From the IMG/VR virus record IMGVR_UViG_3300024503_000118, positions 1-37,740 of that record: DNA of 37,740 nt. The stretch is one strand, 5' to 3'. Of the stretch, positions 1 through 27,696 are shown piece by piece. The notes beneath the pieces are model-generated. The model saw only the letters and a program-made list of their open reading frames with translations, was not told the origin of the DNA and did not search any database. The stretch's first letter is position 1; every line of letters starts with the position of its first letter. This DNA comes from a virus. Made by a program: the position numbers and the translations under genes.

Positions 1-79
1 ATCAGGGCGAAGTATCCAGCTTTTCGGTACCCGAGACGATTGCCCTGGCATCGCCCAGCTCTGGATACTTCGCCCTGAT
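1..79. repeat. Perfect 19-bp inverted repeat at the window edge
   Basis: Positions 1-19 (ATCAGGGCGAAGTATCCAG) are the exact reverse complement of 61-79, with a 41-base spacer. Both arms lie in the coding sequence of the giant virion protein. The outer arm supplies its last codons (Leu-Asp-Thr-Ser-Pro) and its TGA stop at 2-4. A perfect 19-bp repeat inside coding sequence at the extreme end is more typical of an inverted-duplication artefact at a contig end than of a natural terminator. A real terminal hairpin cannot be excluded. Confidence 0.9.
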
Positions 80-3000: not shown

Positions 3001-6000
3001 CAGCCATGTCGGAGAGGGCTTCCTCAACCGCCACAGCGTTGGAGATGTTGCGGCCTTCCTTCTGCTTGTTAGCTGCTTCCCGGATAGCCTTGTTGCCGTT
3101 GTAGAGCGAGGTGAAGTAGTCGGTGTAGGTGTCGCCCAGGAAAGCACGCAGACCGAAGTGGCCGTACAGCTCGTGGAACAGGGTGAACTGGGTGTCGTGC
3201 TCAGATGTAGCAGCCTCGGAGAACATGTAGATGTTCCCCGTCTGCGCGTCGTACAGACCCTTGGGCATGTAGCCGTTGGTCAGACGCTTCATCAAACGCT
3301 CACGCACGCCGTCAGGCAGATGCGACGGGTTGCCGACCACCTTGACGTTGGCAGCAGACTTGAAGGTGCCCATGATCTCGGACACCTGGGACTGCACCAG
3401 CACCGTCGATGCGACAGACCCAGTCTCGCCGTTGCCGATACGGAACAGTGCGTCACCCAGGCGGGACGCCATGTCGTCAAACGATTCGTCTGCCCGCTCC
3501 TCAATCGCCACGAACTCGCCTTCGTCCGTCCGACCCTGCTGCTGCTCAGGACGAGACATGCGCTCGTTCATCTCGGCAACCCAGTTGGCGAACGAGTCGG
3601 CGTTGTCTGTCGTGTCAGCCAGCTTCCTGGCGCGGTTGTGGATCGTCTTGTGGATCCGGTTCAGCTCACGGTAGGTGATGTCCCGTATCGCATTTTTGCG
3701 ATCTTGCGGCGACAGACTCTGATCCTGGTTGACCCGCTCAATCAGTGCGTCGATGCGAGCAGCCCAGGCTACAGCCTCTTTGGCCATGAACTGGTCGGCC
3801 AGGGAGAGCTGCTGCTTGTAGGCATCGGTCAGCATGGGGCCGATGAAGCGCAGACCCATCAGGTTGCCGTAGTCAACCGAGCGACCGATCACCTCGGCCT
3901 TCTTCATAGTGGCCCGCTGTTGTGCCTTGCGCCACGCGGTGAACGCCTTGAGATCCTGGGGAGCCAGAGCGCCAAGGATCTGACGGGCCATGTCGGGCCG
4001 GTAGGTCAGAGCGTTGGAGACGTCGGCATACCAGTCCTGCACAAAGTCCACGATGCCAGAGCGAACCGACAGCGGGAGCTGCCCTTGCGGGATGCTCTCC
4101 GGGTTGCGCATCTGGGTCAGGCTGAACTTGGTGAACAGAGAGTTCGGGAAGACCTTGAGCAAATCCTTGCTGTCGGTATCTACCGGTGCGCGGGAGTTCT
4201 TGGCCTTCCAGTCGTTGTACAGCTCGCGCTCAACGCTGGTGAGCTGACTCAGGATGGTGGTTTTCTCTGCGGAGGTTGACTCACGCAAGGCTCGATCCAG
4301 GGAGGTGAACCACTCCTGACGCGCCACCGGATGGTTGGGTGAGCTGGATACGAAGGCAACAAAGGGCTGCGTGAACGGACGGCCATTCATCCGATCGAAC
4401 ACGGATGGAACCTCGATCCCCTCCTCCTGCATCGCCTGGATCAGTTGTCCGATCGAGAAGTTGGCGTCACGACGCGCCAGTTGCAGCACACGGGTGATTC
4501 CATCAACCGTGATCCGCCCACTAGTAACGCCCTGCGTTATGGCCTGAACGGCATTACGCGCCGCGTTATAGCTGGTGATCGGCTCGCCAGCATCGGCAGG
4601 CTGCTGCTCGACGTTGGTCTCGTCAGTGACGTCCGTCAATTGCTCGTCAGCCTTGACCTCAGACATCAAGCCGTCAGCCAGAGCTTTGATCTGTGCCATC
4701 GGTGTGTCGAAGATGTCCGCGATCGTCTCAGCGGACAGCCCAGCCTTCTCGGCTTCAGACTTGATGTTGAGCAGCTCGCCCATCATCACGTCGGGGTTGC
4801 TGGCAACCTCGTTGGCGCGACGCTTCAGGAGCTTGCGCTGCTGCTCAATGATGCTGTCAGATACGCGCTTGTCGGCCTTCGGCTCGCCTTCTTCCTTGCC
4901 GATTGCATCGTCCGCACGCTCACCGAGGGTGTCGGCAAAGCGATTGGGATCTTCGATGTCATCGACGTTCGAGACTTGATTGGCCGCCTTCTCCTGATCC
5001 TTCTTGGCCTTCTTGGCCTCTTGCTCGAGCTTGGCCCGATCTTCCGCCGTGCTGTCAGCAGCCGTCATCAGGCGACGTACACGGGAGCGGATCACGTTCT
5101 CCGCAGTCGGCTCAGTCCGAGGGGTGCGATTCTTAGCCTTCTCTTCTGCAACCTGCTTCTCCAGATCGTTGAAGCTCTGGCCTTGAGCGCCAAGTGCAAA
5201 CTTGTCGAAGGAGTCTTTTGCCTCCTGGAGGAACTTAGCCTTAAGGCTTTCTCGCTGGGCAAACTTGGCGTTTCTCAGCAAGTCCTTGACGATCCGCACC
5301 TCGTCCTCAACGGTACGCAGATCTTCGTCGCTGAGCGTGATGTTCTTATTTTCGAAGCGGTCGGGAGGACCCTTCTTTATGGTAGGTGCGGTAGCCGCAG
5401 GCTGAGTCGCGCCCTCAGTCCGGACACTGTCGGATTCGCTTGTAGTGCCGCTCGGTGCCTGGGCTTCCGCAGTGTCTGATTTCACCACAGAACGACCAAT
5501 CACCCGTGCGCCAGCCTCCCTCGCCACCTGCGAGAAGTCGAAGCCCTGAGCTTGGAGGTTGCTGGCCTTGAACAGCTTGGCCGCATCACTGATCCTCTTC
5601 TCAGCCAGGAGCTGACGCACCTGGTCGATCGGCAGATCAGCCATCTCATCCGTGGCAGTCCCAACCTGGGACTGAGAAGGCTTGCCCTGTTGGGTCTCGG
5701 TCACAAAGGATGCGACCCTGTCCCTCACCTTCTCGTACTCGGTGATGAACTGCTTGATCTGCATCCGACCGGAGTCGGCGTTGGCCTTGAAGCTGGCGAT
5801 CAGGTTGTCGATGACCGACAGGATGCGAGCCAGCAGAGGTTGGTTGCGCACTCCAAGCTGCTCCCAGAACTTCTTGTCCGTGAACAGGGTTCCGAGCACA
5901 TCGGCTGCAACCTCTTCGTCCGTCTTCTCTGTCTGGTTCTTGGACTCGTAGAACTTCTTGTAGTCCTCGTACCGGTTGGCCTGGAGGTAAGACTTGATCT

Positions 6001-8566
6001 CAAGGCTCAGCGACTGGGCCTGCTGCGGGAAACGACGGGCCAGATCGTGGAACACCTCATGGCCAAGGACGAACAGTGACGCCTTGGGTGACTGGGTGAC
6101 GTTGATGCCGATGATCGACTTGCCAGTCGGGGACGTGATGTTGGTGCCAGCAAGCTTCTTCAGGCGAGCATCGCTGCCGTTGTAGCTGTAGGCAAACAAC
6201 TCGACGCCAAACAGCTTGGCGATCTTGTTCAGGTGGGAAGGGTTCTTGACACGCTTGATCGAGCCCGCCTCAGCACCCCGCTGCTCCAGGCTTGTCTGAA
6301 GTTGCGAGAACGAGTCCTGCGCCACGGACGTGGCGGAAGTCGCATCGCTCTCGGCGACCTGTGTTGCAGAGAATGATCGATCAAACAGCTTCCGCGCAGA
6401 TTGGATCTCTGGATTGATGTCCATGCCCAGAATGGCTTGAGACACCGCAGACTGAGCATTTGATGGATCAGAGGAGAGGAAAGCATCAACTGCCGCGTCC
6501 CCGACAGCCTTGCGCAAGGCAGTCTCGGCGGAGCCGCCAGGAGACGATCTGTCGAGACGAACCATCTTTGAGGTAGACGGTTCCTCGATGGCAATAGACT
6601 GGCCATCAACCCACGCAAGCAGGTTGCTTGACCTGTCAGAACTGCCGCCAAAGTAGGTGGCGTCTGGCGTGACCCTGACCGACGAGAAGCTGATAGCTCC
6701 AGGCTGAACTGGCCCAGCTAGTTGCAGCTCAAACTCTCTGCCACTCATCGAAGCGGTCATGCCGCGACTTTCGAAGCGCACTGACGGCACGAACAGGGAG
6801 CTACCGTCTCCGCGAGAGACTTCGATGTTGCTGATCGAGGGGGCTGTGCCGACTGTCAGTGGCTCGTTTTGAGTGCCATCTGTCGTCTGGGCTACGATCG
6901 GTTCGGTAGCGGGAGTCTCAGTTGAAGAAGCAGGTTCGACGCCGGTTTTACTGGCTTGACTGGGTACGAGCCCACCAGGCTGCTCTCGCTCAAACTCTCG
7001 AACAGCGCGAGACCGTTGGATCTCCTCTTCAAGAGAGGCGAGGTTCTCGTCAGAGCCGAATGAAGCATCTTCACTAGCTGCCCGAGCCAAGCTGGGCGGT
7101 GTGGATTTGTACACACCGGCTGGAGGCGGCGTCTTCAGGAACGGATCCAGAGACCCAAGCACCAAGTTGGCGAAGTCCCCGTTCTGCTGAACCAGGCGAT
7201 TGCCATCTTCAATCGACTGGACGTTGTTGATAGCCGTCTGGAATGCCTCGAGCTGATCGCTTCGGCCCATCGCCTGCTCGATCTGCGTCTTGGTGGCATC
7301 GTCCGCCGTCTGGTACAGGGCGGCAAAGAACGGCACAGAGCGGGAGTCGTTGACGAACTCCTGCATCTGGACGGGCGACATGCCAGGGCCAGCAGGAGGC
7401 TCGCCAGCATTACGATCGCTCACAGGATTCGGTGGGGCATTGGGCCCCTGCTCCTGCGGCTTGCCACGGAACTTCTCTACGCCAACGGCAGCGATCTCGC
7501 CGGGTGCGGTCAAGCCTTCGCCCAGGTACTCGAGCGCCATCTCACCGAAGCTCGCATCCTCACCGACAGCCTTGGATGCCATGTAGGCACCGGTAGCGCC
7601 ACCGATGCCCTGGATGTTCGCCTGGTTGAGGATGTTGGCGACCTTGGACTTGAACGGATTGATGCCCAGGAACGCGCCAGCCACAGCGTTGGCCGGTACT
7701 TCACCGGCAGTCTTGCTGACGGCGTACTCGGCAGCAGCCTCAGTGTCGCCATCGAACTTCTGAAGGCCCTCGGTGTAGTTCGTGCCCAGGGACTGGAACA
7801 CCACGGCAGACGTGTTGATGCCTGCACCGGTCACGCCAGTGCCGACAGCGGACTGCACGGCCTTGCTTGCGCCAGCTCGAGCTGCGGCACCAGCAGCAGC
7901 ACTCTTGAGCGGAGCCGTGGCCACACCACCGATACCGCCACCAACGGCAGCGCCAGGAATCTGCTCGGCCAGGAAGTTGGCAACCATCGTCGGGTTGCGA
8001 ACCATCCAGCCCAGCATTGAGCCGGTGGCTGCTACCACACCATCGTCCTGGTACTTCTGGTCGGCCTCCTTGACCATCTTGCCGATGCGAGGATCAGAGG
8101 CGATCTGGTTGTATTCCTCGACGCTCTTGGCCAGGATGGGAGCGGTGTCCTTGGTGTCGCCAGTGACAGCCTTCTCAAGCCGGTTGGCCAGGAAGTCCCA
8201 GGTCAGACCCAGACCCTTGAAGCCCTTCTTCAAGGCATTGATGGGCTGGAAGCCGTAGTCCTCGTCAGCGACCTTCTTGGCGGTCGGCTGAGGCTCAGCA
8301 ACCGGAGGCTTGTAATCCGGATCGATCTCCATGTCGCCAGCCATGAATCCAGGGGCGACCCTTCGACCTGATGGCGCAGTCTGTCGAGATTGGCTGACCT
8401 CGCTGTTCATCGAGTCCCGCATCACGGACGCACTGGTGCTCGGGGCCTGGACGTCAAACTCCAGATCGCCGCTCAAGAAGCCAGAGTCCCTTGATCGAAC
8501 CCCTCGCTCGGCCTCAGCAGAGTCCAAGAAGTATGGGTTCCTGAGTCCGAGTCGGTCTGTTGCCAT
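2..8566 (-). CDS. Giant polyvalent internal virion protein with two metallopeptidase motifs
   Basis: This 2854-residue protein is the last gene of the late operon. It is probably packaged in the capsid and ejected with the DNA, as inferred for phage polyvalent proteins. Visible features: a low-complexity N-terminus; Ala/Gly-rich hydrophobic stretches at about 200-260; a gluzincin-type HEVFH motif at 836-840 followed by EEVAADV near 882 as a possible third zinc ligand; a charged coiled region at about 1150-1300; a second motif HELYGH at 1798-1803 followed by VEEALSD near 1848; and a C-terminal part with an NPAWAAVNFIRD motif near 2365, reminiscent of large-polyvalent-protein-associated domains. 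It follows two smaller internal-protein genes, so it occupies the place of T7 gp16. The start ATG is 5 bases after the upstream stop. The C-terminus is doubtful because its final codons lie in an inverted repeat. The peptidase motifs are seen directly; activity and ejection are inferred. Confidence 0.88.
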   Translation of the reverse strand: MATDRLGLRNPYFLDSAEAERGVRSRDSGFLSGDLEFDVQAPSTSASVMRDSMNSEVSQSRQTAPSGRRVAPGFMAGDMEIDPDYKPPVAEPQPTAKKVADEDYGFQPINALKKGFKGLGLTWDFLANRLEKAVTGDTKDTAPILAKSVEEYNQIASDPRIGKMVKEADQKYQDDGVVAATGSMLGWMVRNPTMVANFLAEQIPGAAVGGGIGGVATAPLKSAAAGAAARAGASKAVQSAVGTGVTGAGINTSAVVFQSLGTNYTEGLQKFDGDTEAAAEYAVSKTAGEVPANAVAGAFLGINPFKSKVANILNQANIQGIGGATGAYMASKAVGEDASFGEMALEYLGEGLTAPGEIAAVGVEKFRGKPQEQGPNAPPNPVSDRNAGEPPAGPGMSPVQMQEFVNDSRSVPFFAALYQTADDATKTQIEQAMGRSDQLEAFQTAINNVQSIEDGNRLVQQNGDFANLVLGSLDPFLKTPPPAGVYKSTPPSLARAASEDASFGSDENLASLEEEIQRSRAVREFEREQPGGLVPSQASKTGVEPASSTETPATEPIVAQTTDGTQNEPLTVGTAPSISNIEVSRGDGSSLFVPSVRFESRGMTASMSGREFELQLAGPVQPGAISFSSVRVTPDATYFGGSSDRSSNLLAWVDGQSIAIEEPSTSKMVRLDRSSPGGSAETALRKAVGDAAVDAFLSSDPSNAQSAVSQAILGMDINPEIQSARKLFDRSFSATQVAESDATSATSVAQDSFSQLQTSLEQRGAEAGSIKRVKNPSHLNKIAKLFGVELFAYSYNGSDARLKKLAGTNITSPTGKSIIGINVTQSPKASLFVLGHEVFHDLARRFPQQAQSLSLEIKSYLQANRYEDYKKFYESKNQTEKTDEEVAADVLGTLFTDKKFWEQLGVRNQPLLARILSVIDNLIASFKANADSGRMQIKQFITEYEKVRDRVASFVTETQQGKPSQSQVGTATDEMADLPIDQVRQLLAEKRISDAAKLFKASNLQAQGFDFSQVAREAGARVIGRSVVKSDTAEAQAPSGTTSESDSVRTEGATQPAATAPTIKKGPPDRFENKNITLSDEDLRTVEDEVRIVKDLLRNAKFAQRESLKAKFLQEAKDSFDKFALGAQGQSFNDLEKQVAEEKAKNRTPRTEPTAENVIRSRVRRLMTAADSTAEDRAKLEQEAKKAKKDQEKAANQVSNVDDIEDPNRFADTLGERADDAIGKEEGEPKADKRVSDSIIEQQRKLLKRRANEVASNPDVMMGELLNIKSEAEKAGLSAETIADIFDTPMAQIKALADGLMSEVKADEQLTDVTDETNVEQQPADAGEPITSYNAARNAVQAITQGVTSGRITVDGITRVLQLARRDANFSIGQLIQAMQEEGIEVPSVFDRMNGRPFTQPFVAFVSSSPNHPVARQEWFTSLDRALRESTSAEKTTILSQLTSVERELYNDWKAKNSRAPVDTDSKDLLKVFPNSLFTKFSLTQMRNPESIPQGQLPLSVRSGIVDFVQDWYADVSNALTYRPDMARQILGALAPQDLKAFTAWRKAQQRATMKKAEVIGRSVDYGNLMGLRFIGPMLTDAYKQQLSLADQFMAKEAVAWAARIDALIERVNQDQSLSPQDRKNAIRDITYRELNRIHKTIHNRARKLADTTDNADSFANWVAEMNERMSRPEQQQGRTDEGEFVAIEERADESFDDMASRLGDALFRIGNGETGSVASTVLVQSQVSEIMGTFKSAANVKVVGNPSHLPDGVRERLMKRLTNGYMPKGLYDAQTGNIYMFSEAATSEHDTQFTLFHELYGHFGLRAFLGDTYTDYFTSLYNGNKAIREAANKQKEGRNISNAVAVEEALSDMAGDGKFAGVIKGVVGKLIKALRDAGFEGVANWLSKFTDAEVMYVLRAARDAARNGGVPVLNGAPADVLLSEVRMPYEMYSTKDGETTAYARYNPVTMQWYVFTPKQGSSNINTDYQSTTMPHDKFDDVLAEMKRHGKTMRRMRSGLFVDNRIPTDNVQIQDPRETGWFKKAMYWAAIRAQNEYLPIFKVVRQLEKMGRMSDFMNPMKALKLMERKTAARLEKQVEEKFVQPIAALLKEGGAKGMTYDDVNKFLLARFAPVRNEQIAKINPKRPDGGSGMGTKEAKDTLAKYAQSSYATELNAIAKLMDQMSNDKLNGMVADGMITAQEAQKMKAAYPYGYVNLSGQSKENSKFDEDIDPLELAGGRKLNLRGKEKRAMGRGEGDVASDILVRTIAAYEASIIRGEKNRVAQTVLAMAESNPDPSFYMVNTQAWKREIGEDGIVREVLDKEYIRRPDVFVAKVRGIPVTIEFMAMGDGTVAQALHGTVYPPEANMVVTLLRTFNNKIGQLITTYNPAWAAVNFIRDVQTMYFNAAADGRITKEMARTMLRDLPKAIRTSLHVAGWPVQPDPRWLEAFNQMKEDGGLTGFSMREPLEKKVKEIERALAGKDKNFLEKLGDFAEKITLPMEMATRLSAYKTVRDNGFTRTDAAVFSGEITVDFNARGSAQGLRAMYLFFNPAIQGTAKMYQLMRDNPKQVAKYAFALAGMGALTNLLARALGGQGEDGEDKLDQLPTFKRATSIVIYPDMPLGAMPIAYGWNAFFAVGHFGVDWMLGKQTLTETAKRIGTTAIEAFLPAGSSGLESQSTIGKIAKGLTPTAGQPILEYLMNENRYGAPIKMSGSTFGGAEKPESEMAFRSVNPISKMIAQGANRATGDGLTSGTKFLPGMIDFNPAAIDHFVAAYIPGFATEIYKGAGLMVRVARGEEIARTPLPLIDRFSAYPPEGFDAGAFRRLATFVDTRWNAFKNTESEAEADAIRAKYPELGDARAIVSGTEKLDTSP

Positions 8567-11392: not shown

Positions 11393-11998
11393 TCACGGGG
11401 TGTCGTCGGGCCAGTGGATGGCGTTGACCTCGGCGGCAGTTGTGGCCGCTTCGATCTGCTGCCGAAGGGTTCTGCCCAGGACGTGCTGAGCGTTGACGTG
11501 TACCGCCAGGGCCTGGCCCACCGAGATCATCTGCGCACCTGTCAGCGTCCGTACGGTATTGTCCTTGAGCGTCCAGTCCATCAAGAACGACGCAGGGTTC
11601 ATGTTGGCGAGCTGAGTGGCCCCGACGATCTTGGTCTGTGACTCCGGGTCAGAGTCGAACACCGACCCGTCCCAGGTGAATCCGCCATGCTCGGCTGCAT
11701 CTCGAGCAGCCTTGATCTCGGCCCACTTGTCCGCCTTCAGCGCATCAGGCGTTCGCGCATCCACCCACTGCTCGGCGCCAGGGTTCCATGTGGCCGGGTG
11801 CAGGGGTGGGACAGCTTTTCTGGCGGCACCCTCGGGCGTGTAGGCAACCCATGCGCCGTCACGAACACAGCCATCGTCGGCCATAACGGGTGAGTTGACC
11901 TCTACCCAAGGCTTATCGTTGGGCGGAGGGCTGTCCTCTGGGAAGCCGAAAACGTATTTGACGGTGCCCGACTCGTCGTAAAACGCTGCAAATTTCAT
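11393..11998 (-). CDS. DUF4376-type tail fibre accessory protein
   Basis: The 201-residue protein begins with a short beta-type segment (MKFAAFYDESGTVKYVFGFP). From about residue 90 it has the layout of DUF4376: KWAEIKAARD, GGFTWDG, SVFDSDPESQTKIVGA, then a DWTLKDN stretch and a helical end reading AAEVNAIHW. In other phages this domain sits at the end of tail-fibre operons, in proteins likened to fibre assembly factors or fibre termini. Here the start overlaps the stop of the 972-residue fibre gene by 4 bases (ATGA), so it is probably that fibre's partner. The family assignment is by eye, and assembly versus structural role is open. Confidence 0.8.
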   Translation of the reverse strand: MKFAAFYDESGTVKYVFGFPEDSPPPNDKPWVEVNSPVMADDGCVRDGAWVAYTPEGAARKAVPPLHPATWNPGAEQWVDARTPDALKADKWAEIKAARDAAEHGGFTWDGSVFDSDPESQTKIVGATQLANMNPASFLMDWTLKDNTVRTLTGAQMISVGQALAVHVNAQHVLGRTLRQQIEAATTAAEVNAIHWPDDTP

Positions 11999-14913
11999 CG
12001 CTTGCCACCGGATGCGATCAGCGAGACCGCGCTGTAGGTAAATGTTCCAGACCCGGGCCCCTGGTTGACGAGGTCAACCGTGTAGACGTTGTAGCCATCC
12101 AGCGGCGATGGATCGAATGCAGTGGCGACAAACGAAGATGTCTGAGCGTCGAGCACGGACACCGCAGAAGACGAGATCAGGACTGTGTTGCGCCGGATGT
12201 AGATGCCCATCGTTGAGCCGCCACCAGAGCTGATCGCATTCAGCGTGACAATCACGGTCACGCCGCTAGACCCGCCCGCCATCGTCAGCCCAAGAGCGAC
12301 TACCGTGCTTGCTGTGTTTCCAAAGGAAAGGGAGCCAGAAGATCCGCTTGCAATGTTCATCGCGGTCACGGATCCGCCCTGAATGTTCAGGGTGTTGACC
12401 ATCACCGTGTTGGCCTTCAGCGTTGACGCCTCGATGTCGCCACGAGCGTAGATGTTGTTGAAGGTTGCGTTGCCAGTGCCGGTAATTGACCAGCCTGTGC
12501 CAGCGCCAAAGTTGCTCGACGACAGTCCGCCGCCGGTGATGTTGATGCCGCCGATCTGTCCATTGGTAGAGAAGACGCTGCCGCGAACCGTGACGTTGCT
12601 GAACTCTGCTGCGCCAGACTGGTTCAGCGAGAAGCCGGTCAGGCCGCTGACGTAGTTCGATGACGAGATGCCGTTGGCGTCAATCAGGATCGAGCCGATC
12701 GTGCCGAAGTAGGCGTAGATACCTCCTCGCACAATCGCGTTGGTGCCGTCGAACTGAAGAGAACGACCGTTGATACCGGTCGATCCGTTGCCGATGTAGA
12801 ACTGATTGACCCCGCCGTAGTCACCCAGGTAGAAGCCAGCATTGCCAGGAAGCACGGCTCCCGAGCGGACAATTGGAGAGCGAAGGTCGATTGCCGCCGT
12901 GATGGTTCCGGCTGTGATCTTGTCCGCAGCCAGGTCAGCGATCTTGGAGTTGGTGACCGCAAGGTTCTGGATGGCCGCGTTGCCAACAGCCAGATTGGCA
13001 ATCTTCGCAGATGTGATAGCCGCATCAGCAATCTGTGCAGAGCCGACGGCTAAGTTGGCAATCAGAGCTGTAGTGATCGCGCCTGTCTGAATCGCTGCCG
13101 TGCCAACAGCCAGATTGGCAATCTTCGCAGATGTGATGGCCGCGTCCTGGATTTGCGCGGAGCCTACAGCAAGGTTGGCAATCAACGCATTTGTGATCGC
13201 TCCAGTCTGAATGGCGGCGGTACCAACAGCCAGACTGGCAATCTTCGCGGACGTGATGGCTGCGTCCTGGATCTGAGCAGTCCCAACAGCAGTATTCGCA
13301 ATCAGTGCGTTCGTGATTGCGGCGTTGGCAATCACGCCATCATTAGCGATGATCGCGTTGACCGCGATCTTGCCAGCCGTCACAGCTCCAGCGGCAAGCT
13401 CAGATGCGCTGATGGCCCCTGCCGCAATTTGCGCCGCAGTGATCGTGTCCGCAGCGATGTTGCTGCCTGTGATGGTGTTTGCGGCGATGCGGTCGCCGGT
13501 AATTGCACCGGCTGCAATGTTGCTTGCCTGGATCGTGCCTGCCGCGATCTTTGCCGCAGTGATGGCCCCAGCAGCCAGCTTCGGGGTGCTGATGGCGTCA
13601 TCGCTGATCTGCGTTGTCGTGATCTGACCGGCGATCTTGGTTGCATTGACCCCGGCAATCTGGGCGTCCGTGATGGTGCCGCTGAGGTCTGATGTATCTA
13701 CGGCTGCGGTATACGCCGTACCACTCCAGCGATACAGCTTGCCGCTGAAGACGATGGTCTCTGTGCTCTTGGTCGTCGGCAGCGCGCCGGTCACAATCGT
13801 CACTGGCTCAATGCCAGACGCAAACTTGGTTAGCGTGACAGCGCCAGACGCGATCTTTCCCGCCGTGACGGCCAGATCTGCCAGCTTCGTGTTGCTGATG
13901 ATGAAGTCGGCGATCTTCGTGGGATCGCTGATCACTGCCATGTTGGCGTTTGCCAGCAATCCAGTGATCTTGCTTCCGCTCAGGTCGATCGCACCATCGG
14001 CAATTTTCCCAGCAGTGATTGCAAGGTTCGCCAACTTGGTGTTGCCGATCAGGCCATCGGCAATCTTGGTCGGATCCGTAATCACCGCCATGTTGGCGTT
14101 TGCCAACAGACCAGTGATCTTGGTGCCGCCCAGGTCGATAGCTCCGTTGGCAATCTTGCCTGCTGTGATCGCAAGGTCAACGAGCTTGGTGTTTCCGATC
14201 AGTGAGTCCGCGATCTTGGTTGGGTCAGTAATGACCTCCATGTTCGCGTTCTTGAGCAGTCCATAGATCTTGTTTCCACCAAGGTCGATTGAGCCATTGG
14301 CGATCTTCTCGGCTGTGATGATCAGGTTCGACAGATCCTGACCACCAATCATGCTGGTGCTTGCAGCGGTGCCGCTGGTGGCGTTGTAAGGCCCAATGAC
14401 ATTCGCCATCGAGACGAACCGGATCCAGTAGTAATACGTCTGACTCGTCTTGCCGACAGGATCAGAGAAGATCGAGCCAATAGTCGTGCCGATCAAGACG
14501 GCAGAGCCAAGAACGTTGGTGGCGCTGCGCCACACCTCTGTGTAGCTGTGATTGCTGTACGCCGCGCCAGTCCACTCCAGGACGATGGTCGAGAACGTGG
14601 AGGTGGCCGTCAGCCCGCCCGGAGCAGGAGGTGTTGTGAGATCTGTGGTCTCGTCGTAAGGGTCTGGGCCAAAGACGCCACCACCATTGCCTACGACCGG
14701 CAGCTTGCCGGTTCCGCCAACGGGGGCTAGGGTGGTCGAACCATCCTTCGCAAGACCGAGCGCCTTCAGCTCGCGCAGGCTGACAAACTGATCGAGCGGA
14801 TCACCAAGTCGACCCTCTCGGACGTCAAGCGAACTCTTGATCGCCTGAAGCGCCTGGACGACGTTGCTGTCGGATGGGGCCGGGATCGCCGGTACTTGGG
14901 TCTCGCGGCTCAT
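11995..14913 (-). CDS. Large repeat-rich tail fibre / host-recognition protein with FN3-like domain
   Basis: This 972-residue protein shows a modular fibre layout. An N-terminal region of about 90 residues is presumably for virion attachment. A fibronectin-III-like domain follows at about 94-185 (PPAPGGLTATSTF, VLEWTGA, YYYWIRFVS). Then come three 50-residue repeats (201-350), decapeptide ITxxxIAAGA repeats (441-520) and 20/40-residue repeats (about 533-660). The C-terminal beta-rich region (about 670-972) resembles the end of lambda J-type central fibre proteins. Regular short repeats with Ile at fixed spacing suggest an elongated trimeric beta structure. The start overlaps the stop of the upstream structural gene (ATGA) and the end overlaps the DUF4376 gene. 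Host-recognition function is inferred. Confidence 0.85.
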   Translation of the reverse strand: MSRETQVPAIPAPSDSNVVQALQAIKSSLDVREGRLGDPLDQFVSLRELKALGLAKDGSTTLAPVGGTGKLPVVGNGGGVFGPDPYDETTDLTTPPAPGGLTATSTFSTIVLEWTGAAYSNHSYTEVWRSATNVLGSAVLIGTTIGSIFSDPVGKTSQTYYYWIRFVSMANVIGPYNATSGTAASTSMIGGQDLSNLIITAEKIANGSIDLGGNKIYGLLKNANMEVITDPTKIADSLIGNTKLVDLAITAGKIANGAIDLGGTKITGLLANANMAVITDPTKIADGLIGNTKLANLAITAGKIADGAIDLSGSKITGLLANANMAVISDPTKIADFIISNTKLADLAVTAGKIASGAVTLTKFASGIEPVTIVTGALPTTKSTETIVFSGKLYRWSGTAYTAAVDTSDLSGTITDAQIAGVNATKIAGQITTTQISDDAISTPKLAAGAITAAKIAAGTIQASNIAAGAITGDRIAANTITGSNIAADTITAAQIAAGAISASELAAGAVTAGKIAVNAIIANDGVIANAAITNALIANTAVGTAQIQDAAITSAKIASLAVGTAAIQTGAITNALIANLAVGSAQIQDAAITSAKIANLAVGTAAIQTGAITTALIANLAVGSAQIADAAITSAKIANLAVGNAAIQNLAVTNSKIADLAADKITAGTITAAIDLRSPIVRSGAVLPGNAGFYLGDYGGVNQFYIGNGSTGINGRSLQFDGTNAIVRGGIYAYFGTIGSILIDANGISSSNYVSGLTGFSLNQSGAAEFSNVTVRGSVFSTNGQIGGINITGGGLSSSNFGAGTGWSITGTGNATFNNIYARGDIEASTLKANTVMVNTLNIQGGSVTAMNIASGSSGSLSFGNTASTVVALGLTMAGGSSGVTVIVTLNAISSGGGSTMGIYIRRNTVLISSSAVSVLDAQTSSFVATAFDPSPLDGYNVYTVDLVNQGPGSGTFTYSAVSLIASGGKR
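12934..13593 (-). repeat. In-frame 10-, 20- and 40-residue tandem repeats in the fibre gene
   Basis: Codons 441-520 (13354-13593) read as eight consecutive decapeptides of the form ITxxxIAAGA. Codons 533 to about 660 (12934-13317) are built of 20-residue halves pairing into 40-residue units (ALIANLAVGSAQIQDAAIT / SAKIANLAVGTAAIQTGAIT). Neighbouring 120-bp DNA units are nearly identical, including the recurrent string GCCAGATTGGCAATCTTCGC (near 12990 and 13110 on the plus strand), which indicates recent duplication and scope for length change by recombination. Confidence 0.85.
13864..14313 (-). repeat. Three in-frame 150-bp repeats in the fibre gene
   Basis: Codons 201-250, 251-300 and 301-350 are three exactly in-phase 50-residue copies. 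Each reads GKIANGAIDLGG, KITGLLANANM, ITDPTKIADGLIG, NTKLANLAIT or close variants. A fourth copy starts at codon 351 and decays. The exact 150-base spacing without indels points to tandem duplication under selection for frame. Confidence 0.85.
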
Positions 14914-19326: not shown

Positions 19327-19692
19327 TCACTTCAGGTTCTTCAGCTTGTAGAGCGTGGACAGGTACAGACCCACGATCTCATCGATGATGTTCTGAAGGG
19401 CCGTGTCCTCTTTGGGGACGGCTTCGAATCGATTGTCTTCGACCCACTTGAGGTGCTGCTCCAGGACGGGGATGACTTCCCCCTTGTCAGCGTCCAGATA
19501 CGGGATGTCTTCGATGATGCCGTTGCGCCCCTGGTAGGCCTCGGCCAGGGAGTCCGCCAGATCAACCACCTCGTCGTAGAAGCTGCCGAGGGCGATATGC
19601 GCGGCGTAGCTACCCGGCCCGGTCACCTTCAGGTGTTCCCGATGAGCAACGTCTCTTGACAGGAAGAGTAGAGCAATCAATTCGCCAATCAT
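19327..19692 (-). CDS. DUF5856-like helical protein
   Basis: The 121-residue helical protein starts MIGELIALLFLSRDVAHREHL and contains ALGSFYDEVVDLADSLAEAY. The spaced His/Glu/Asp residues recall small ferritin-like bundles and match what I remember of phage DUF5856 proteins. No signal peptide or membrane span follows the moderately hydrophobic start. It lies between the lectin-like fibre gene and the membrane-protein run. Function is unknown, and a DNA-protection or metal-binding role would be speculation. Confidence 0.75.
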   Translation of the reverse strand: MIGELIALLFLSRDVAHREHLKVTGPGSYAAHIALGSFYDEVVDLADSLAEAYQGRNGIIEDIPYLDADKGEVIPVLEQHLKWVEDNRFEAVPKEDTALQNIIDEIVGLYLSTLYKLKNLK

Positions 19693-20662: not shown

Positions 20663-21706
20663 TCAGGTTCCAGTCAGAAAGGCCATTCCAAAGCCGGCGC
20701 CACAGTTGAACCAGCGATACTGCTGACCACTGATCGATACGACGTCTAGAGTGGTTCCAATGCTGGGTGCGGTGAAATAGACAGGCACAACGCCGGTCAC
20801 AAACACGACGGGATGCCCTCGTGCTCCGGTCTGGAACCACACGGGCGACACTTGGTAGACGGGGAATCCAGACTGATCAATCGTTGTTGATCGCAGCGTT
20901 GACGCATTCTGAATGAAGTTGCCGAGATTCCGAGTCATGTTCTCGGTAAAGTCGTATGTTCCCGCAATGTTGGCGTCGCTTGTGCGGTACGAGTTAAATG
21001 TCGCCGCGAGGATGGTGTTGGATATGACCGCGGAGCTGTTTGTGGGAACAATGATATTCGCTCTTGTGAATATGTCTGAGCGATTGTGCGAATACTGAAC
21101 CATCGGAACAGTGTCTGAGTACAGGTGGAGTGGAGACGCCTGATGCTCCCATAGCGCAGAAAACCCGCGACCCTCTTGGATGATGGTGATATGCCGTTGA
21201 TCGGCAATCACGTAGGTCGTGGAGTTGGCGGTGAACCCAAGGGCGGTAGGCTCCCCCTCCGTCACGCCATCTGTTGAAGAGTGAAAGTACCTTGGCCCCT
21301 CGTTTGTCACCACGCCTGTCGAGGTCGCGTTCGTCGCGCCGGTCAAGCAGCCATATACGGCTGTCGTGCCATTGGACGCCTGAGCGAGGCCAATCTCTTG
21401 AGTGAGCACTGCGTACTTCAGCTTGGTCGTCGCAAGACATGGCGCGCTTAAGCACAAGCGCCACACGACGTCGGCGGTCGTAGTAAAGCCAGCTAATGAG
21501 CCGTTGTAGATGGTTGGTTGATCAGCGGCATACGAACCCCCGACATACGTCCAACCAGCCGGGGCGGCGTCGTAAATGACGGAGGTCGATTGACTGAATC
21601 CGCTCAACAGACTCAGTGAAGGCGATTGCGACGTCAGTAGCCGCGCAATGTCGCGGAAGGCAGCGCAGGCGTTGAGTCCAGTAGGGGTAACAAGTTTGGC
21701 AAACAT
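20663..21706 (-). CDS. Virion surface/fibre-block protein of unknown family
   Basis: The 347-residue, Thr/Ser/Gly-rich beta-type protein starts MFAKLVTPTGLNACAAFRDIARLL. It lies in the block of probable fibre and lectin proteins and has no recognisable catalytic motif. Low charge, many beta-strand-like stretches and the neighbours suggest a surface-exposed structural or tail-decorating role. Its start is coupled to the upstream gene (TGATG). The C-terminus (QQYRWFNCGAGFGMAFLTGT) looks like a compact beta end. Confidence 0.72.
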   Translation of the reverse strand: MFAKLVTPTGLNACAAFRDIARLLTSQSPSLSLLSGFSQSTSVIYDAAPAGWTYVGGSYAADQPTIYNGSLAGFTTTADVVWRLCLSAPCLATTKLKYAVLTQEIGLAQASNGTTAVYGCLTGATNATSTGVVTNEGPRYFHSSTDGVTEGEPTALGFTANSTTYVIADQRHITIIQEGRGFSALWEHQASPLHLYSDTVPMVQYSHNRSDIFTRANIIVPTNSSAVISNTILAATFNSYRTSDANIAGTYDFTENMTRNLGNFIQNASTLRSTTIDQSGFPVYQVSPVWFQTGARGHPVVFVTGVVPVYFTAPSIGTTLDVVSISGQQYRWFNCGAGFGMAFLTGT

Positions 21707-21903
21707 CAGACGCTCTCCTCAATAGGCAGAAGGCGAGGGTCGGAGACTGGACGCTCCGTGCGAACGAAGCATCCTTCGCCAAGCAGATACGAGTAGGAGA
21801 CTTCGAGAGAGGCCATGTATGGCTCTAGGTCGTCCCTGCCGCCATCGAATCGATACAGGCAGTCTGAGCTTCCAAAATGATTGATCGCGTCTTGTGCGTT
21901 CAT
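21706..21903 (-). CDS. Small unknown protein in fibre block
   Basis: The 65-residue acidic protein (MNAQDAINHFGSSDCLYRFDGG) has no signal peptide or membrane span. It fits tightly between two late genes, with a TGATG overlap downstream and a 3-base gap upstream, which supports it being real. I do not recognise it. Its position between fibre-type genes suggests a small virion or assembly component. Confidence 0.65.
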   Translation of the reverse strand: MNAQDAINHFGSSDCLYRFDGGRDDLEPYMASLEVSYSYLLGEGCFVRTERPVSDPRLLPIEESV

Positions 21904-21906
21904 GAT

Positions 21907-22392
21907 TTATGCCGATTGATACCAGGTTCCAATGACGTTGAGTCCAGCAGCCCTGTTGGCAGAGGTTCCAGCAGCCTCAATCACATCAACATACATGCTG
22001 TCGAATGCCGTAAATTGATGAGCCACAGAGGTGGTTACCGAGACTGAACCAACCGGGATGATCATTGTTGCGATCACAGTGTGCAGGCCTGGAGATGTTG
22101 GGTCGCTGCCCACCTTCACTCGCAGCACAATCCGCGAAAGTGCTGGCGCTACTGAAAGTCTGGCCGTGATGCTGGTCATGAGACCACCGACACCGCCGCC
22201 GATTCGGCCTCCACTGCCAATGTTTGACGCGACTTGCACGAGAGTCCTGGAGCTATTGAACGCGCCAACGGTTACCGTTCTTGGCGCGGCACCAGCTATC
22301 AACTGTGTTGCGCTTGCGCCGATAGAGGATTGCGTGTTGGCAAACGCTCGACCGAATGGCGCATCAATGATGATTGATCTTGTTCTCGGCAC
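21907..22392 (-). CDS. Probable minor virion protein, beta-rich
   Basis: The 161-residue protein has a basic N-terminus (MPRTRSIIIDAPFGRAFAN). A Gly-rich patch follows (GSGGRIGGGVGGLM), then alternating hydrophobic strands (SRIVLRVKVG, TVIATMIIPVGSVSVTTSV). It lacks cysteine. It is two bases downstream of the fibre gene and is likely co-translated with it. Composition and context suggest a virion-surface component; the family is not recognised. Confidence 0.68.
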   Translation of the reverse strand: MPRTRSIIIDAPFGRAFANTQSSIGASATQLIAGAAPRTVTVGAFNSSRTLVQVASNIGSGGRIGGGVGGLMTSITARLSVAPALSRIVLRVKVGSDPTSPGLHTVIATMIIPVGSVSVTTSVAHQFTAFDSMYVDVIEAAGTSANRAAGLNVIGTWYQSA

Positions 22393-22394
22393 GA

Positions 22395-23891
22395 CTAGAC
22401 CTCATTGAGAGAAAGAATGACGCGCCAACTGTATGTCTTAGAAGCGGGGCCCGTCACGTAGACTCGAAGCGACGAACTTAACGACTCAAAGACAGACCTG
22501 ATGTCAACGGAGACAAGAACGTCATCTCGCACGACAATCTGCTCGAACAGATTGCCCTTGTCAGAGAACACCCCGCCTATCAGTTCCGCTGAGCCACGAA
22601 CAACTATGTAGACACTGTCTCTTGGTGTCGAGGAGCTGATGTTCGTGTCGCTGCGGTAGCCAACAAACTCAGCCACATACGCCACTATTCGAGTCGTGGC
22701 ACCAACCGTCAGGCGAGAATTGGACGCGCCATCCACAAACAGCTCGGTCTCCGTGCTATTGGTTGTGGTTCCGTTGTAAACAAAGACTCTCGTGTAGCCA
22801 GAACTAGCTCCGCCACTAGAACCACTCCCGCCGCCTCCGATATTGCCCCAGCCGTTCGGGTAATAACCCTCGTATGAGCCGGTAGTTGTGTTGTAGCGCA
22901 ACAGGCCGACAACTGGGTTGGTCGGTCTGTTTGCAGAGCTACCAACTGGGATCCTAAAAGGGCTTGCGCCCAGAGTGCCGCCTACAGTGACCGCTCCGTT
23001 GACCTCAAGTGACCCAAATAGCAAGTTCTGACTCGCGCTGTCAGCCTGGAAGATGCCGTAACGACCCAAAATGCTGCCGCCGCTTTGGACGTTTGGCGCA
23101 GACAGATACAAGCCATAGAAGTTGGCAATCGTTCCTACGCTTCCACCAGCAGAACTCGACCCTACCGTGACCGGATTGGCGTAGAACTGGTAGTAGTTCG
23201 CTACAACAACGTTGTTGGTAACGGCTGAAGAAGACCCGATGTTGCCGGTTGTCCAGACTCCGTAGACGTTCGTGGCAGACCCGCCCTGAACAATTGCAGA
23301 AGCATTGACCGCTGCGATGGTTTGGCTGGATGCACCATTGCTAATGGCGGCGGTGTGGCGGGCCGTAAAGAACCCACCATACAGACTGTTGGCGCTCGCT
23401 GTTGAGGTGTCCCCTGCATTCGACCTTTCACCAAACGCCTGCACCCCATACAGAACGACCGGGGCAGATGCGCCAGATGAGGCGATCTGCGGAACAAAGT
23501 AGCCGCCCCAGGCAATGTTGGAGTTTGACCCGCCAGATCCACTGTTGCTAATGGTCGGCTGAGACAGCACTCCAAACAGCGTGCCAGTCAGAGCGCCATT
23601 GCTCCCACTAAACGGCGTTGTGTTGGCGATTAGGTGGGTGATGTTTCCGCTGGACGTGGCGCTGTTGACGAAGAACGACGAGTTTGCGCCGGAGCTATCC
23701 ACCTTCACCTGCCCGGTGAAAGTGTCGCCAGCCTTGTTCGCTGGTGTGTATCCGAGGGCGTTCGTGATAACGCCACTCGTGACCTCACTCAGCTTCTGAG
23801 TCAGCTCCGTATTGAGATTGGAGAAGTTGGCGTCAAGCTCCGCGTTCGTCAGCGGAGAGCCTTTGACCGACCTTAGAGTTATTGCCGCCAT
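22395..23891 (-). CDS. Tail fibre protein
   Basis: The 498-residue fibre opens with MAAITLRSVKGSPLTNAELD and FSNLN, a common N-terminus of phage fibre and structural proteins. NKAGDTFTGQV follows near residue 53 (the GDTFTG-type fibre repeat). The middle is long and Ser/Gly/Asn-rich. A Gly-rich hinge lies near 350-360 (GGGGSGSSGG), and the C-terminal domain carries VFVYNGTTTNSTETELFVDG. Likely an elongated trimeric fibre. The N-terminal attachment module and variable C-terminus are typical; receptor specificity is inferred. Confidence 0.85.
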   Translation of the reverse strand: MAAITLRSVKGSPLTNAELDANFSNLNTELTQKLSEVTSGVITNALGYTPANKAGDTFTGQVKVDSSGANSSFFVNSATSSGNITHLIANTTPFSGSNGALTGTLFGVLSQPTISNSGSGGSNSNIAWGGYFVPQIASSGASAPVVLYGVQAFGERSNAGDTSTASANSLYGGFFTARHTAAISNGASSQTIAAVNASAIVQGGSATNVYGVWTTGNIGSSSAVTNNVVVANYYQFYANPVTVGSSSAGGSVGTIANFYGLYLSAPNVQSGGSILGRYGIFQADSASQNLLFGSLEVNGAVTVGGTLGASPFRIPVGSSANRPTNPVVGLLRYNTTTGSYEGYYPNGWGNIGGGGSGSSGGASSGYTRVFVYNGTTTNSTETELFVDGASNSRLTVGATTRIVAYVAEFVGYRSDTNISSSTPRDSVYIVVRGSAELIGGVFSDKGNLFEQIVVRDDVLVSVDIRSVFESLSSSLRVYVTGPASKTYSWRVILSLNEV

Positions 23892-23924: not shown

Positions 23925-24368
23925 TCAGGAGATCGTGACAGTCCAGGTGATCGACAAGGTGTCGCCAGCGTCCTTGTTGACCACGGCAAACTTGGTGCGG
24001 CAGAGCATCGTGCCAGCGGATGCTGCATTGAAGATGCCAGCTTCAGTCACCGCGCCGGTGCCGGTGCCAGGAGCAAACGTGGCGGTGTAGACCGCTTGAT
24101 TGCCGGTGACGACAGTGGATGTCAGGGCAACGCGGCCAAGCTCACTGCCCAACGCCGCATCCCCTGCGATTGCGTTGGCGGTTCCGGCCCCAATAGCCAT
24201 GTGGCTCATAGCGGCCTGACTTGTATCCCTCATGCGCGAAGCGATGTAGCCAAGGCCGGTCGTTACGACCAGGTTTTTGACTTCCTGCTCATGCTTGACC
24301 CGGCCATCAGCGCCAGTGAGTACGACTTTCAAGGCACCGGTCGCCTTGAGGATTTCTTGCGTGTTCAT
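23925..24368 (-). CDS. Fibre-block structural protein
   Basis: The 147-residue protein starts MNTQEILKATGALKVVLTG and contains GLGYIASRM and HMAIGAGTANA. The layout (HEQEVKNLVVTTGLGYIA, then MSHMAIGAGT) resembles small phage tail or baseplate-decorating proteins found next to fibres. It has a beta-rich C-terminus and no membrane segment. It is followed by a gap of about 30 bases and then the fibre gene. Structural role inferred. Confidence 0.72.
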   Translation of the reverse strand: MNTQEILKATGALKVVLTGADGRVKHEQEVKNLVVTTGLGYIASRMRDTSQAAMSHMAIGAGTANAIAGDAALGSELGRVALTSTVVTGNQAVYTATFAPGTGTGAVTEAGIFNAASAGTMLCRTKFAVVNKDAGDTLSITWTVTIS

Positions 24369-24379
24369 TCATTCACCTC

Positions 24380-26020
24380 TCAAAAGTTGACAACGACATT
24401 TCCGACGTAGTCTGCTGCGAAGTACGAGGCATCGCAGTAGTCCTGCTTCAAAACACTCCCTGCGTCGGATGCAGAGGTGGTGTCAGATAGATTCTTTCGC
24501 GGGGCAAGCAAAGCTGCATCGGTGCTTGACGCTGAGTCAGTAGCGCCTCGGCCAAGCCGCGCATCGAACAGGTCACCCACTATTGCGGAGTCGCTTATTG
24601 CTTTCGCAACAACTCTTGCCGCAATGTCTGCGGCACTAAGCGGTTCAGCAAACGACTTTCCAGAGCTGAGGAGGGCGGCATCGCCGGTCGTGATCTGTTC
24701 GGAAGTGCTCTTCGAGATGAGCCTTGCGACAAAGTCGGCGGACGCCGCAGCATCAGCGGACACTCGTCCGACTAGCTTTGTCGCGATGTCCGAGGTTGCT
24801 GACTGGTCAGCAAACTCTTTGGACGATGACAGGGCGCTGCTGTCAGATGCCGCAGGCGCGTCCTCTGCAATCTTCCCAAACGAAAGCACATCCTCATCTG
24901 CGCTCTGCACTGTGTCGCCAAGGATCTTGCTGGCGATCAGACTCGCAAGCTCAGTGGGCGACACGCCGTCGCTTAGGCCCTTGGTGACGGCCAGAGCCGT
25001 TGAATCAGATAGACCAGCCAAGTCGGCAAGAACTTTGCCGAGCGCAACGCTACTGATGTCCGTCGTTGTGGCGTCGGATGAACTCTCTCTGCCCCGAACA
25101 TAACCAACCAGGGCCGAGTCAAGCACAGATACGGAGTCAACCAACTCCTTCGCGAAGGAGCGCGCCAGGACATCAGAAGAAGTGATCTGTTCGTCCTGAG
25201 ACCGGATGTATTCAACAGCGAGATCGAACAGATCGCTGCTTGAGACGATGTCAGAGACCGCCTTGATAAACTGCGCTGTCTGATCGTCATCTGCCGTCGC
25301 AGCTCCATCCAGGTCGTCCGTAGCCATCGCGTCGGTTTGGACATGGCGCGACAGGTCAAGACCAGCCTGATCTGTTGTGACCGCGACGTCCGAATAGTTG
25401 TAGCTACGAACATAGCCAACCGCTATCCGGTCAGAGGTGGACACGGTTTCTACAAGAGCCTTGACCAGAAGTCGAGCGGAGTCGTCCGTGCTCGTGGCGG
25501 CGTCGAGCGCAATCTTTGAGATCGCCTTGCCGATCTCCTCTGACGCAGAAGCGGAGTCCAGCTTTGAAAGACCGACGCCCTTGATCTGAGCATCCGATGT
25601 GGACGCAATCTCCGCGATCGCTTTGTTCAGCAGAGACGTTGCAGCATCAACCGCAGCAAGGCTTTCGTTGAACTGCTTGGACGACGACTTGCCCAGGATG
25701 TCAATCGCGGAAGCAAGCTCGGAGAATGACTTCTGAAGCGATGCGACCCTGGAGTCGCTCGTGATTGCGGCGCTCTCTGCGTCGTAGATGCGAGTGAAGT
25801 AGCCAAGCACAAGGCTGGCCTGGATAAGAGCGCCATACGCCGCCGCCTCGATTTGTGAGGCGGTTGCGCTGGCCTTCAGTAGGCTTGCAGCGGTAGCGGC
25901 TTTGGCTCGCGTCTCCTCAACAACAGATGAGCGAAACTTGACAACAGAAATCTCTGCGCGCAGGGTGACGCATGAAATGGACGCCCTAAGGCTTTCAAGC
26001 GCGACCGCAGAAATCTTCAT
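24380..26020 (-). CDS. 18-residue helical repeat protein, possible tail shaft or spike component
   Basis: The 546-residue Ala/Ser/Asp-rich protein is dominated by an 18-residue repeat with pattern K/R-x3-D/E-x5-D/E-x7. Basic residues fall at 329, 347, 365, 383, 401, 419, 437, 455, 473, 491 and 509, exactly 18 apart. Earlier copies (169, 187, 273, 291) keep the spacing with occasional 20-residue variants. Eighteen residues equal five alpha-helical turns, so an extended helical rod or solenoid is plausible. The end (DYCDASYFAADYVGN) is a distinct short cap that I have seen at the C-termini of similar phage proteins. The start overlaps the upstream stop (ATGA). Function is not established; a virion shaft or linker is inferred from context. 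Confidence 0.82.
   Translation of the reverse strand: MKISAVALESLRASISCVTLRAEISVVKFRSSVVEETRAKAATAASLLKASATASQIEAAAYGALIQASLVLGYFTRIYDAESAAITSDSRVASLQKSFSELASAIDILGKSSSKQFNESLAAVDAATSLLNKAIAEIASTSDAQIKGVGLSKLDSASASEEIGKAISKIALDAATSTDDSARLLVKALVETVSTSDRIAVGYVRSYNYSDVAVTTDQAGLDLSRHVQTDAMATDDLDGAATADDDQTAQFIKAVSDIVSSSDLFDLAVEYIRSQDEQITSSDVLARSFAKELVDSVSVLDSALVGYVRGRESSSDATTTDISSVALGKVLADLAGLSDSTALAVTKGLSDGVSPTELASLIASKILGDTVQSADEDVLSFGKIAEDAPAASDSSALSSSKEFADQSATSDIATKLVGRVSADAAASADFVARLISKSTSEQITTGDAALLSSGKSFAEPLSAADIAARVVAKAISDSAIVGDLFDARLGRGATDSASSTDAALLAPRKNLSDTTSASDAGSVLKQDYCDASYFAADYVGNVVVNF
24497..25036 (-). repeat. Ten tandem 54-bp (18-codon) degenerate repeats
   Basis: Codons 329-508 of the 546-residue gene form ten consecutive units of exactly 18 codons, each beginning with Lys or Arg and usually carrying Asp/Glu at positions 5 and 11. 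DNA identity between units is low although the spacing is exact. This suggests old duplication with selection on structure. Confidence 0.85.
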
Positions 26021-26349
26021 GCGCTAAAGTCCTCGCGCACCTTGAACCTGACAGTGTCGTAGACCGACTGCCTGTCTCCATTGGAGAACGTCAGCTCTAG
26101 TTCTCCCTGGTAGTCGCCAGCGGGAACGTTGAGGGTAGTTGGCCCCCAAGCGAAAACGGTCTTGCCAGCGGGGCCATCCAGCACAATCCCGGTGAGGGTC
26201 GCTAGGGTCTCTGAAGATCCCAGAGCGCGGAAGTACATGCGCGGCACAGCGCCTGTGATGTTGATGGGCAGGCCAGTCGTCTCGTCCGTAAAGGTCACCT
26301 GAATCTGTGGACGAGTGTCGCCTTGAACGAGCTTGATCTTCTGGGTCAT
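26017..26349 (-). CDS. BppU/Ig-like small tail protein
   Basis: The 110-residue beta-sandwich-like protein has QKIKLVQGDTRPQIQVTFTD, LPINITGA, ETLATLTG and QGELELTF-DGDR-type strands. This pattern resembles the N-terminal domain of phage baseplate upper proteins (BppU) and related Ig-like modules that anchor receptor-binding proteins. It lies between the adaptor genes and the repeat/fibre block, where such an anchor would be expected. The stop overlaps the next start (ATGA). The family call is by resemblance. Confidence 0.78.
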   Translation of the reverse strand: MTQKIKLVQGDTRPQIQVTFTDETTGLPINITGAVPRMYFRALGSSETLATLTGIVLDGPAGKTVFAWGPTTLNVPAGDYQGELELTFSNGDRQSVYDTVRFKVREDFSA

Positions 26350-26350
26350 G

Positions 26351-27004
26351 TCAGATTCTCCGCATCTGCACGCTCAGATTTGCCCGGGTGAAACCGCGAG
26401 TCGCCTTCTGACGCGCATCATTGACGCCGACCATGTACTGGCCCTGGTAGTAGCCAGCGAGCTTGGGGTTCGAGTACGCCTTGTTGGGCGTCATTTGCAG
26501 CCGAGAAACAGCGCCAGCGGCAATAGGCTCAACGAATTGTTCGAACAGGAAATCGGCGCAAGACGTCGCGCTGCGAAGCGGAGCCAAGGCCACGCGCATG
26601 GTGATGGCGTTGGACAGTTGCCTCTCCGGAATCGGAAATAACGAGAAAGTCTCCGAGTCCTTCTGCACAAACGTCCGAGGCGTGCCGTACTGAGTGCTGT
26701 AGTCACCCACCTGCTGGTTGTAGAGGGTTGGGTCTGACACCTGGTCGGGAGCTGAGGCGGCGAGCTCATTACCCGAGTACCAAAGCTTCATGATCTTGAT
26801 GATCCTGGTGTCCGCAACCGGAGAATCCAGATCGTAGTCAGCCGTCTTCGCCGCGACAGACACAGGGTCATGATCGGCCTGGTAGATCAGGCTCTTTTCA
26901 CAGAACTCGATCGTCGCGTCCTTGATCGCCTGGAGCGCCGTGATCTCGGCACAACCAGGAACCTCAGGAAGCACCCGTGACAGAAAGTCGTCGTAGCTGG
27001 CCAC
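26351..27004 (-). CDS. Podoviral connector/tail adaptor protein
   Basis: The 217-residue protein starts MASYDDFLSRVLPEVPGCAE and continues ALQAIKDATIEFCEKSLIY. Later segments include FSLFPIPE and GYYQGQYMVGVNDARQKA. It lies directly after another adaptor candidate and one base from the BppU-like gene. Length, mixed fold and position fit a head-tail connector or tail-tube adaptor. Assignment is mainly by position. Confidence 0.75.
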   Translation of the reverse strand: MASYDDFLSRVLPEVPGCAEITALQAIKDATIEFCEKSLIYQADHDPVSVAAKTADYDLDSPVADTRIIKIMKLWYSGNELAASAPDQVSDPTLYNQQVGDYSTQYGTPRTFVQKDSETFSLFPIPERQLSNAITMRVALAPLRSATSCADFLFEQFVEPIAAGAVSRLQMTPNKAYSNPKLAGYYQGQYMVGVNDARQKATRGFTRANLSVQMRRI

Positions 27005-27006
27005 GA

Positions 27007-27696
27007 TCAGACACCGCCCATTTGCAGCGAGGCTGCGCTCGGAGCCGTCGTCCTGCCCTTGCTGTTTAGGTCGGGCGAGAAGGCTGCGTCCTTGCTGGTC
27101 TTGATGCCCAGCATCGACTGGAAGATCTGGAGGTAGGTAGCCGAGAGCTGGAAGTTCTGAGCGAACTCAGCGTCCTTACTGTAGGCGCGGTGCAGAACGT
27201 AGTTCAGCAGCGGGTCAGCGTAGATGTCGGCCACAGCCACCGTAGAGCCGGTGGCAGTCACGTCGGTCGGGTTCTTCGAGTAGATGATCTCGAGCTTGGC
27301 CGTGTTCAGCGCAGGCGGGTAGACGTAGAAGGTCTTGGGATCCCGGTTGTCGTAGATGTAGTTCTTGACGACAGCCTGGCCGCTCTCGCTGTGCCAGTTC
27401 ACGTTCTGGGTATCCAGCACGTCGCGATCGACATGGCGCACCACCCGGCCACCGGAGTTGTCGGGGTTGATGTTGCGCATCACGTCCAGCAACCGCAGGC
27501 CGTCGTTCGGGATCGACTGCTTGGTTCCGGCGACCAGAGTGATCGTGGAGTTACTGACGCAGGCATCAGGCCGCACCAGGGCGATGACTCGCTGGCCATC
27601 GTTGATCCAGCCCAGGAGCTCGGAGTCAAGCCAACGGACTCCATCAGCATCGTTCAGGACGATCCGAGCACGGTTGATGATGTCGCTTGCAATCAT
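27007..27696 (-). CDS. DUF6682-like phage adaptor protein
   Basis: The 229-residue protein starts MIASDIINRARIVLNDADGV, followed by RWLDSELLGWINDGQRVI and IPNDGLRLLDVMRN. This matches my memory of DUF6682 'phage adaptor' proteins, which sit at the head-tail interface in podoviruses. It lies two bases before the next adaptor and downstream of the capsid cluster, as expected. The C-terminus is low complexity and may dock to the portal or neighbouring ring (inference). Confidence 0.82.
   Translation of the reverse strand: MIASDIINRARIVLNDADGVRWLDSELLGWINDGQRVIALVRPDACVSNSTITLVAGTKQSIPNDGLRLLDVMRNINPDNSGGRVVRHVDRDVLDTQNVNWHSESGQAVVKNYIYDNRDPKTFYVYPPALNTAKLEIIYSKNPTDVTATGSTVAVADIYADPLLNYVLHRAYSKDAEFAQNFQLSATYLQIFQSMLGIKTSKDAAFSPDLNSKGRTTAPSAASLQMGGV

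Follow-up and report, generated by a model that had tools for sequence, protein, structure and literature searches.

An 18-residue repeat protein as the proposed tether of a beaded fibre in a podovirus-type genome fragment

Genes of the fibre block

The stretch of DNA analysed here, called the window, comprises the 37,740 nucleotides of IMG/VR virus record IMGVR_UViG_3300024503_000118 and is part of the genome of a podovirus that resembles Burkholderia phage BcepMigl. Its minus strand carries a gene (24380..26020) for a 546-residue protein built of 18-residue repeats, recognized by its open reading frame, its periodicity and a weight matrix, which is proposed below to be a fibre tether. An earlier note on this DNA had described the product as a virion-type protein in a fibre block, and that description is supported. 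Directly upstream lies a gene for a small protein of 110 residues, the proposed virion adaptor (26017..26349, minus strand), which overlaps the repeat gene by the sequence ATGA. This protein matches phrog_1084 (E 1e-9), and two of ten relatives in its family match BppU_N (best E 5e-7). Further upstream are two SU10-type head-tail adaptor genes (26351-27004 and 27007-27696, minus strand; PF24175 at 1e-7 and 5e-38, respectively), which anchor the repeat locus in a podovirus tail block. The SU10-type adaptor gene, with 93% coverage in BcepMigl, relates the window to both BcepMigl and Pseudomonas phage Itty13. Downstream, a gene for a Gp80-like protein of 147 residues, the proposed bead (23925..24368, minus strand), begins 11 bp past the repeat gene. 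Its match to PF23140 (E 0.003, 18.3 bits) is below the cut-off of 27, so that the link to this family is a below-cut-off one for the window; 11 of 21 relatives of the Gp80-like protein match PF23140, the best at 6e-5. The next gene, 3' of the bead gene, encodes a putative fibre protein (22395..23891, minus strand) with weak PHROG matches, possibly an adhesin.

The arrangement of the three genes recurs well beyond the window. With neighbour HMMs built from named phages and the window only, a Gp80-like gene is found directly downstream of the repeat gene in 60 of 61 other loci and never upstream, and a BppU_N-like gene immediately precedes the repeat gene in 57 of these 61 and never follows it; none of 164 control tiles matches either HMM. 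Removal of close relatives leaves the downstream linkage at 36/37 and the upstream linkage at 31/34. A previous linkage count of 63/63 was set aside as partly circular, its HMM having been drawn from the counted loci. Four loci lack the upstream gene, and at L048, L063 and L064 the array is fused behind tail-tip or baseplate-like domains. Synechococcus phage BUCT-ZZ01 carries both the repeat gene and a Gp80-like gene, though the two are far apart.

The repeat array and its unit

The repeat protein comprises three regions. An Ala-rich N-terminal region (residues 1-96; 25733..26020, minus strand) contains short repeats of another type and is common to some relatives. It is followed by an array that the weight matrix parses into 22 units (residues 97-526; 24443..25732, minus strand) and by a conserved C-terminal tag, DYCDASYFAADYVGNVVVNF (residues 527-546; 24380..24442 with the stop codon, minus strand), identified by a family scan and by a 36-sequence alignment in which the tag columns are invariant. 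The matrix was trained on the relatives together with the window protein, and it gives all remaining window proteins scores of 0-4. Within the array lies an Asp-rich insert, DDLDGAATADDDQ (residues 235-247; 25280..25318, minus strand), which is present in siphovirus-type and in distant relatives as well; it may be a metal-binding loop and resembles a calcium-binding one.

Basic residues stand at positions 329, 347, 365, 383, 401, 419, 437, 455, 473, 491 and 509, and residue 311 lengthens this exact run to 12, compared with a maximum of 6 in 5000 shuffles of the protein. Triples of the form K/R-x3-D/E-x5-D/E occur 11 times in one 18-residue phase (at most three in 5000 shuffles), and residue identity at lags of 18, 36, 54 and 72 lies 4.2-6.6 SD over shuffles. 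The periodicity reported in the earlier note is genuine, but its count of ten units described only the block of residues 329-526 within an array about twice that long, and the exact spacing of 18 that it claimed holds for the 12 basic residues but not for the N-terminal half of the array, where spacings include three of 20 and one of 46. Within the family the spacings found are 18 (n = 299), 20 (47), 19 (31), 24 (24) and 37 (8). Tandem Repeats Finder detects no DNA-level repeat in the repeat gene, indicating that the units are old at the DNA level.

The consensus of 482 units from 43 proteins is K1-x-L3-x-D5-[ST]-V7-[ST]-[AV]9-[ST]-D11-x-x-x-L15-x-F17-x, with hydrophobic or charged residues at odd positions and small residues at even ones. 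When a hydrophobicity wave is fitted with the three charged positions masked, the uncharged positions of 438 units from relatives alternate with a period of two (R2 0.82 at 180 degrees versus 0.07 at 100 degrees), and a period near 3.5-3.6, that of an alpha-helical rod or coiled coil, is absent from them. The Ala-rich units of the window alone give a weaker signal than those of the relatives (R2 0.41 at 180 degrees, 5% at 100 degrees); their odd-even difference is reached by none of 20000 shuffles, and the difference is present in 40/40 relatives with at least five units. On the strength of this period-two pattern, a beta or otherwise extended structure of the units is favoured over a helical one, although the sequence falls short of proving it. 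The AlphaFold2 monomer model (36 sequences; pLDDT 47, pTM 0.24) draws helices at less than 50 pLDDT across most of the array and is unusable for deciding the fold. Solved structures yield no match to the repeat protein or to the family profile, and a full-text literature search found no paper on this 18-residue repeat.

A repeat family of phages

A tblastn search of the whole repeat protein against named phages gives no match, and relatives were reached with its last 35 residues and with the genes on either side. Members of the family carry a C-terminal DYxDxxYFAEDYVG tag. The tag pattern DYxDxxYFA[EA]xYVG alone recovers at least 119 viral stretches, which reduce to 70 distinct tagged proteins, most of them clearly 18-periodic. 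Among 84,980 bacterial and archaeal genomes, one per species, a shorter tag pattern has three matches, by our own estimate about the chance level; one is true, the 18-kb MAG contig L150, which is the sole cellular tag match with units. The family is common in viral contigs and metagenomes but almost missing from genomes of cells.

Members occur in loci of podo-, sipho- and myovirus type. The free-standing form has about 5-22 units, and a form fused behind a siphovirus tail-tip domain, encoded after the tape measure gene, has about 2-5. Tail-tip fusions occur in Achromobacter phages SE2, Axy06 and ART, in Burkholderia phage BcepGomr and in phage Simon, while myovirus-type loci L048 and L064 carry fusions to baseplate-type domains. 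In BUCT-ZZ01 eight units are found in the gene that follows the T4-type gp6 gene. The arrays of L033, L097, L027 and L064 contain additional YFAEDY-like motifs between unit blocks, as if C-terminal tags had been incorporated when arrays were joined.

Values of dN/dS between 0.10 and 0.30 among relatives show clear purifying selection on the family. The statement of the earlier note that spacing is preserved while sequence diverges is supported. Within clades of the same length, relatives align without an internal gap down to 60% identity (over 324 residues). Among the larger internal gaps, those of 54 and 53+1+18 (=72) residues correspond to three and four units, and others measure 9, 15 and 78. 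Gap-free relatives of equal length and some changes by whole units make it plausible, as also suggested there, that length matters. Nor is there a named Pfam family for the repeat protein, matching the statement that none was known. PHROG phrog_384, annotated merely 'virion structural protein', is matched by 23 of 36 family members at E 0.01 or better (best 1e-6), and phrog_12240, which has no description, by 15 of 36 (best 3e-9); the window protein reaches phrog_384 at E 0.04 only, by a weak match that sits at the C-terminal tag.

The proposed tether and related fibres

The repeat protein is best read as the tether, or rope, of a beaded fibre, with its units extended and stringing together Gp80-like beads, a reading to which a probability of roughly 0.58 is attached. 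Each 18-residue unit would form an extended, beta-type segment. The BppU_N-like adaptor encoded upstream would hold the N-terminus at the virion, a role that a fused tail-tip or baseplate protein would take over in other phages; this orientation is suggested by the fused virion domains, which all lie on the N-terminal side. Gp80-like beads, as dimers, would bind along the array and produce a long flexible chain, the C-terminal tag would cap the far end or join it to the next fibre protein, and the resulting beaded fibre would contact the host. The failure of the monomer model would be expected if the chain needs its partner in order to fold, although it is no proof of this. Such a tether would give a concrete role to an almost undescribed family annotated at best as a virion structural protein.

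The strongest competing reading is a beta shaft that assembles by itself, in which the units alone build a homotrimer with a beta-spiral or beta-helical fold and the Gp80-like protein serves only as an end cap or collar. Trimeric beta shafts are frequent among phage fibres, and the period-two pattern and fixed unit length suit one; the units have no conserved Gly or Pro turn position, however, and the near-invariant bead partner and GP4-like gene block suggest a fibre of two components, so that a shaft is rather improbable. That the array is an unstructured spacer in which composition alone matters is unlikely: the pLDDT of 47 and the low-complexity composition agree with disorder, whereas the strict pattern with conserved K1, D5 and D11, the low dN/dS, the gap-free alignment of equal-length relatives and the near-invariant gene neighbours all argue against it. 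Least credible is the alpha-helical rod that the earlier note had envisaged as a shaft, for although 18 residues equal five helical turns, the window protein is Ala-rich and the low-confidence model draws helices, the hydrophobic period is 2 and not 3.6, inserts of +1, +2 and +6 in relatives (spacings of 19, 20 and 24) would break the helical phase, and beta-branched residues, Ser, Thr and Gly abound.

The number of units may plausibly act as a ruler of fibre length. A broader version, in which each unit captures a fixed number of beads, the unit count sets both bead number and length, and the cassette has moved among podo-, sipho- and myovirus virions as a widespread fibre class, is more tentative and perhaps somewhat doubtful. 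Tape-measure proteins set the length of tails, and the proposed tether would set that of fibres; were the ruler confirmed, phages would possess a second kind of length-setting template.

The closest parallel is fibre I of the Ralstonia podophage GP4 (PDB 8JOU), in which an elongated rope protein reportedly links gp80 dimers into a chain. The adaptor-tether-bead logic of that fibre is the one proposed here from genes, the bead of the window matches gp80 weakly, and the same genome block stands beside the SU10-type adaptors in BcepMigl, where the adaptors are followed by gp56, gp57 (no family), gp58 and gp59. BcepMigl gp56 belongs to Pfam family Gp80, of GP4 fibre I, and matches 8jou_a, which has 10 chains in its PDB entry, at 2.5e-59; gp59 is a member of Gp77, the fibre-tail adaptor of GP4, with a match to 8jou_D (1e-39). 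The adaptor of GP4 is Gp77, whereas that of the window is BppU_N-like: the adjacent upstream protein has no match to PF23148 (Gp77), and its relatives match BppU_N instead. The 18-residue units of the window tether are absent from BcepMigl gp57, the candidate homologue of a GP4-type rope, and the periodicity of gp57 and of Itty13 QRE00591 is not significant. A Foldseek search with the model of the Gp80-like protein (pLDDT 84) returned no significant match, and hhalign of bead and adaptor profiles against GP4-type proteins gave no support, perhaps because two-sequence profiles are too thin. The window system would work like GP4 fibre I, but membership is not established, given the missing Gp77 adaptor and a bead match under threshold. 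The tether reading points to beaded fibres of the GP4 kind as a frequent feature of phages with different tail types.

Two further occurrences of GP4-type or bead-like proteins were noted. In Mycobacterium phage Rumpelstiltskin, and likewise in similar phages, the adjacent genes 22 and 23 (21229-21933) have matches to a fibre-tail adaptor and a bead of GP4 type, and mycobacterial siphoviruses may accordingly carry such fibres. Residues 401-591 of PDB 9h4p chain BD ('Baseplate hub') include one or two domains that resemble the family of Gp80-like beads (E 7e-5 with its profile).

Other bead-chain and fibre modules differ more. The Anabaena myophage A-1(L) carries long bead-chain neck fibres at the virion collar, encoded by the three-gene operon gp82-gp81-gp80, whose beads are gp81 trimers joined head-to-tail via N-terminal beta-hairpins (PMC10966104). 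The window, too, would encode a bead-chain fibre in three genes, but the beads of A-1(L) join without a tether protein, whereas one is proposed for the window. The Alishewanella phage LSH1 has an extra structural module, gp34-36, of three co-inherited genes that its authors propose to form a fibre, comprising one protein with a weak match to the GP4 bead (8JOU_g), one Ig-fold protein and one adhesin (PMC13243795). In contrast to the window, no protein with 18-residue repeats is described for this module.

Elsewhere in the window, a 972-residue tail-fibre ORF (11995-14913) contains DNA tandem repeats at 12966-13321 (120 bp, 3.0 copies) and 13881-14319 (150 bp, 2.9 copies) and has a protein period near 50. 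A 121-residue ORF inside the structural gene block (19327-19692) matches phrog_858, 'starvation-inducible transcriptional regulator' (3e-20). The matches of a 2854-residue ORF (2-8566) are confined to giant phage proteins with no assigned function (phrog_14770, 7e-101), with a faint resemblance to a metallo-protease around residues 775-866.
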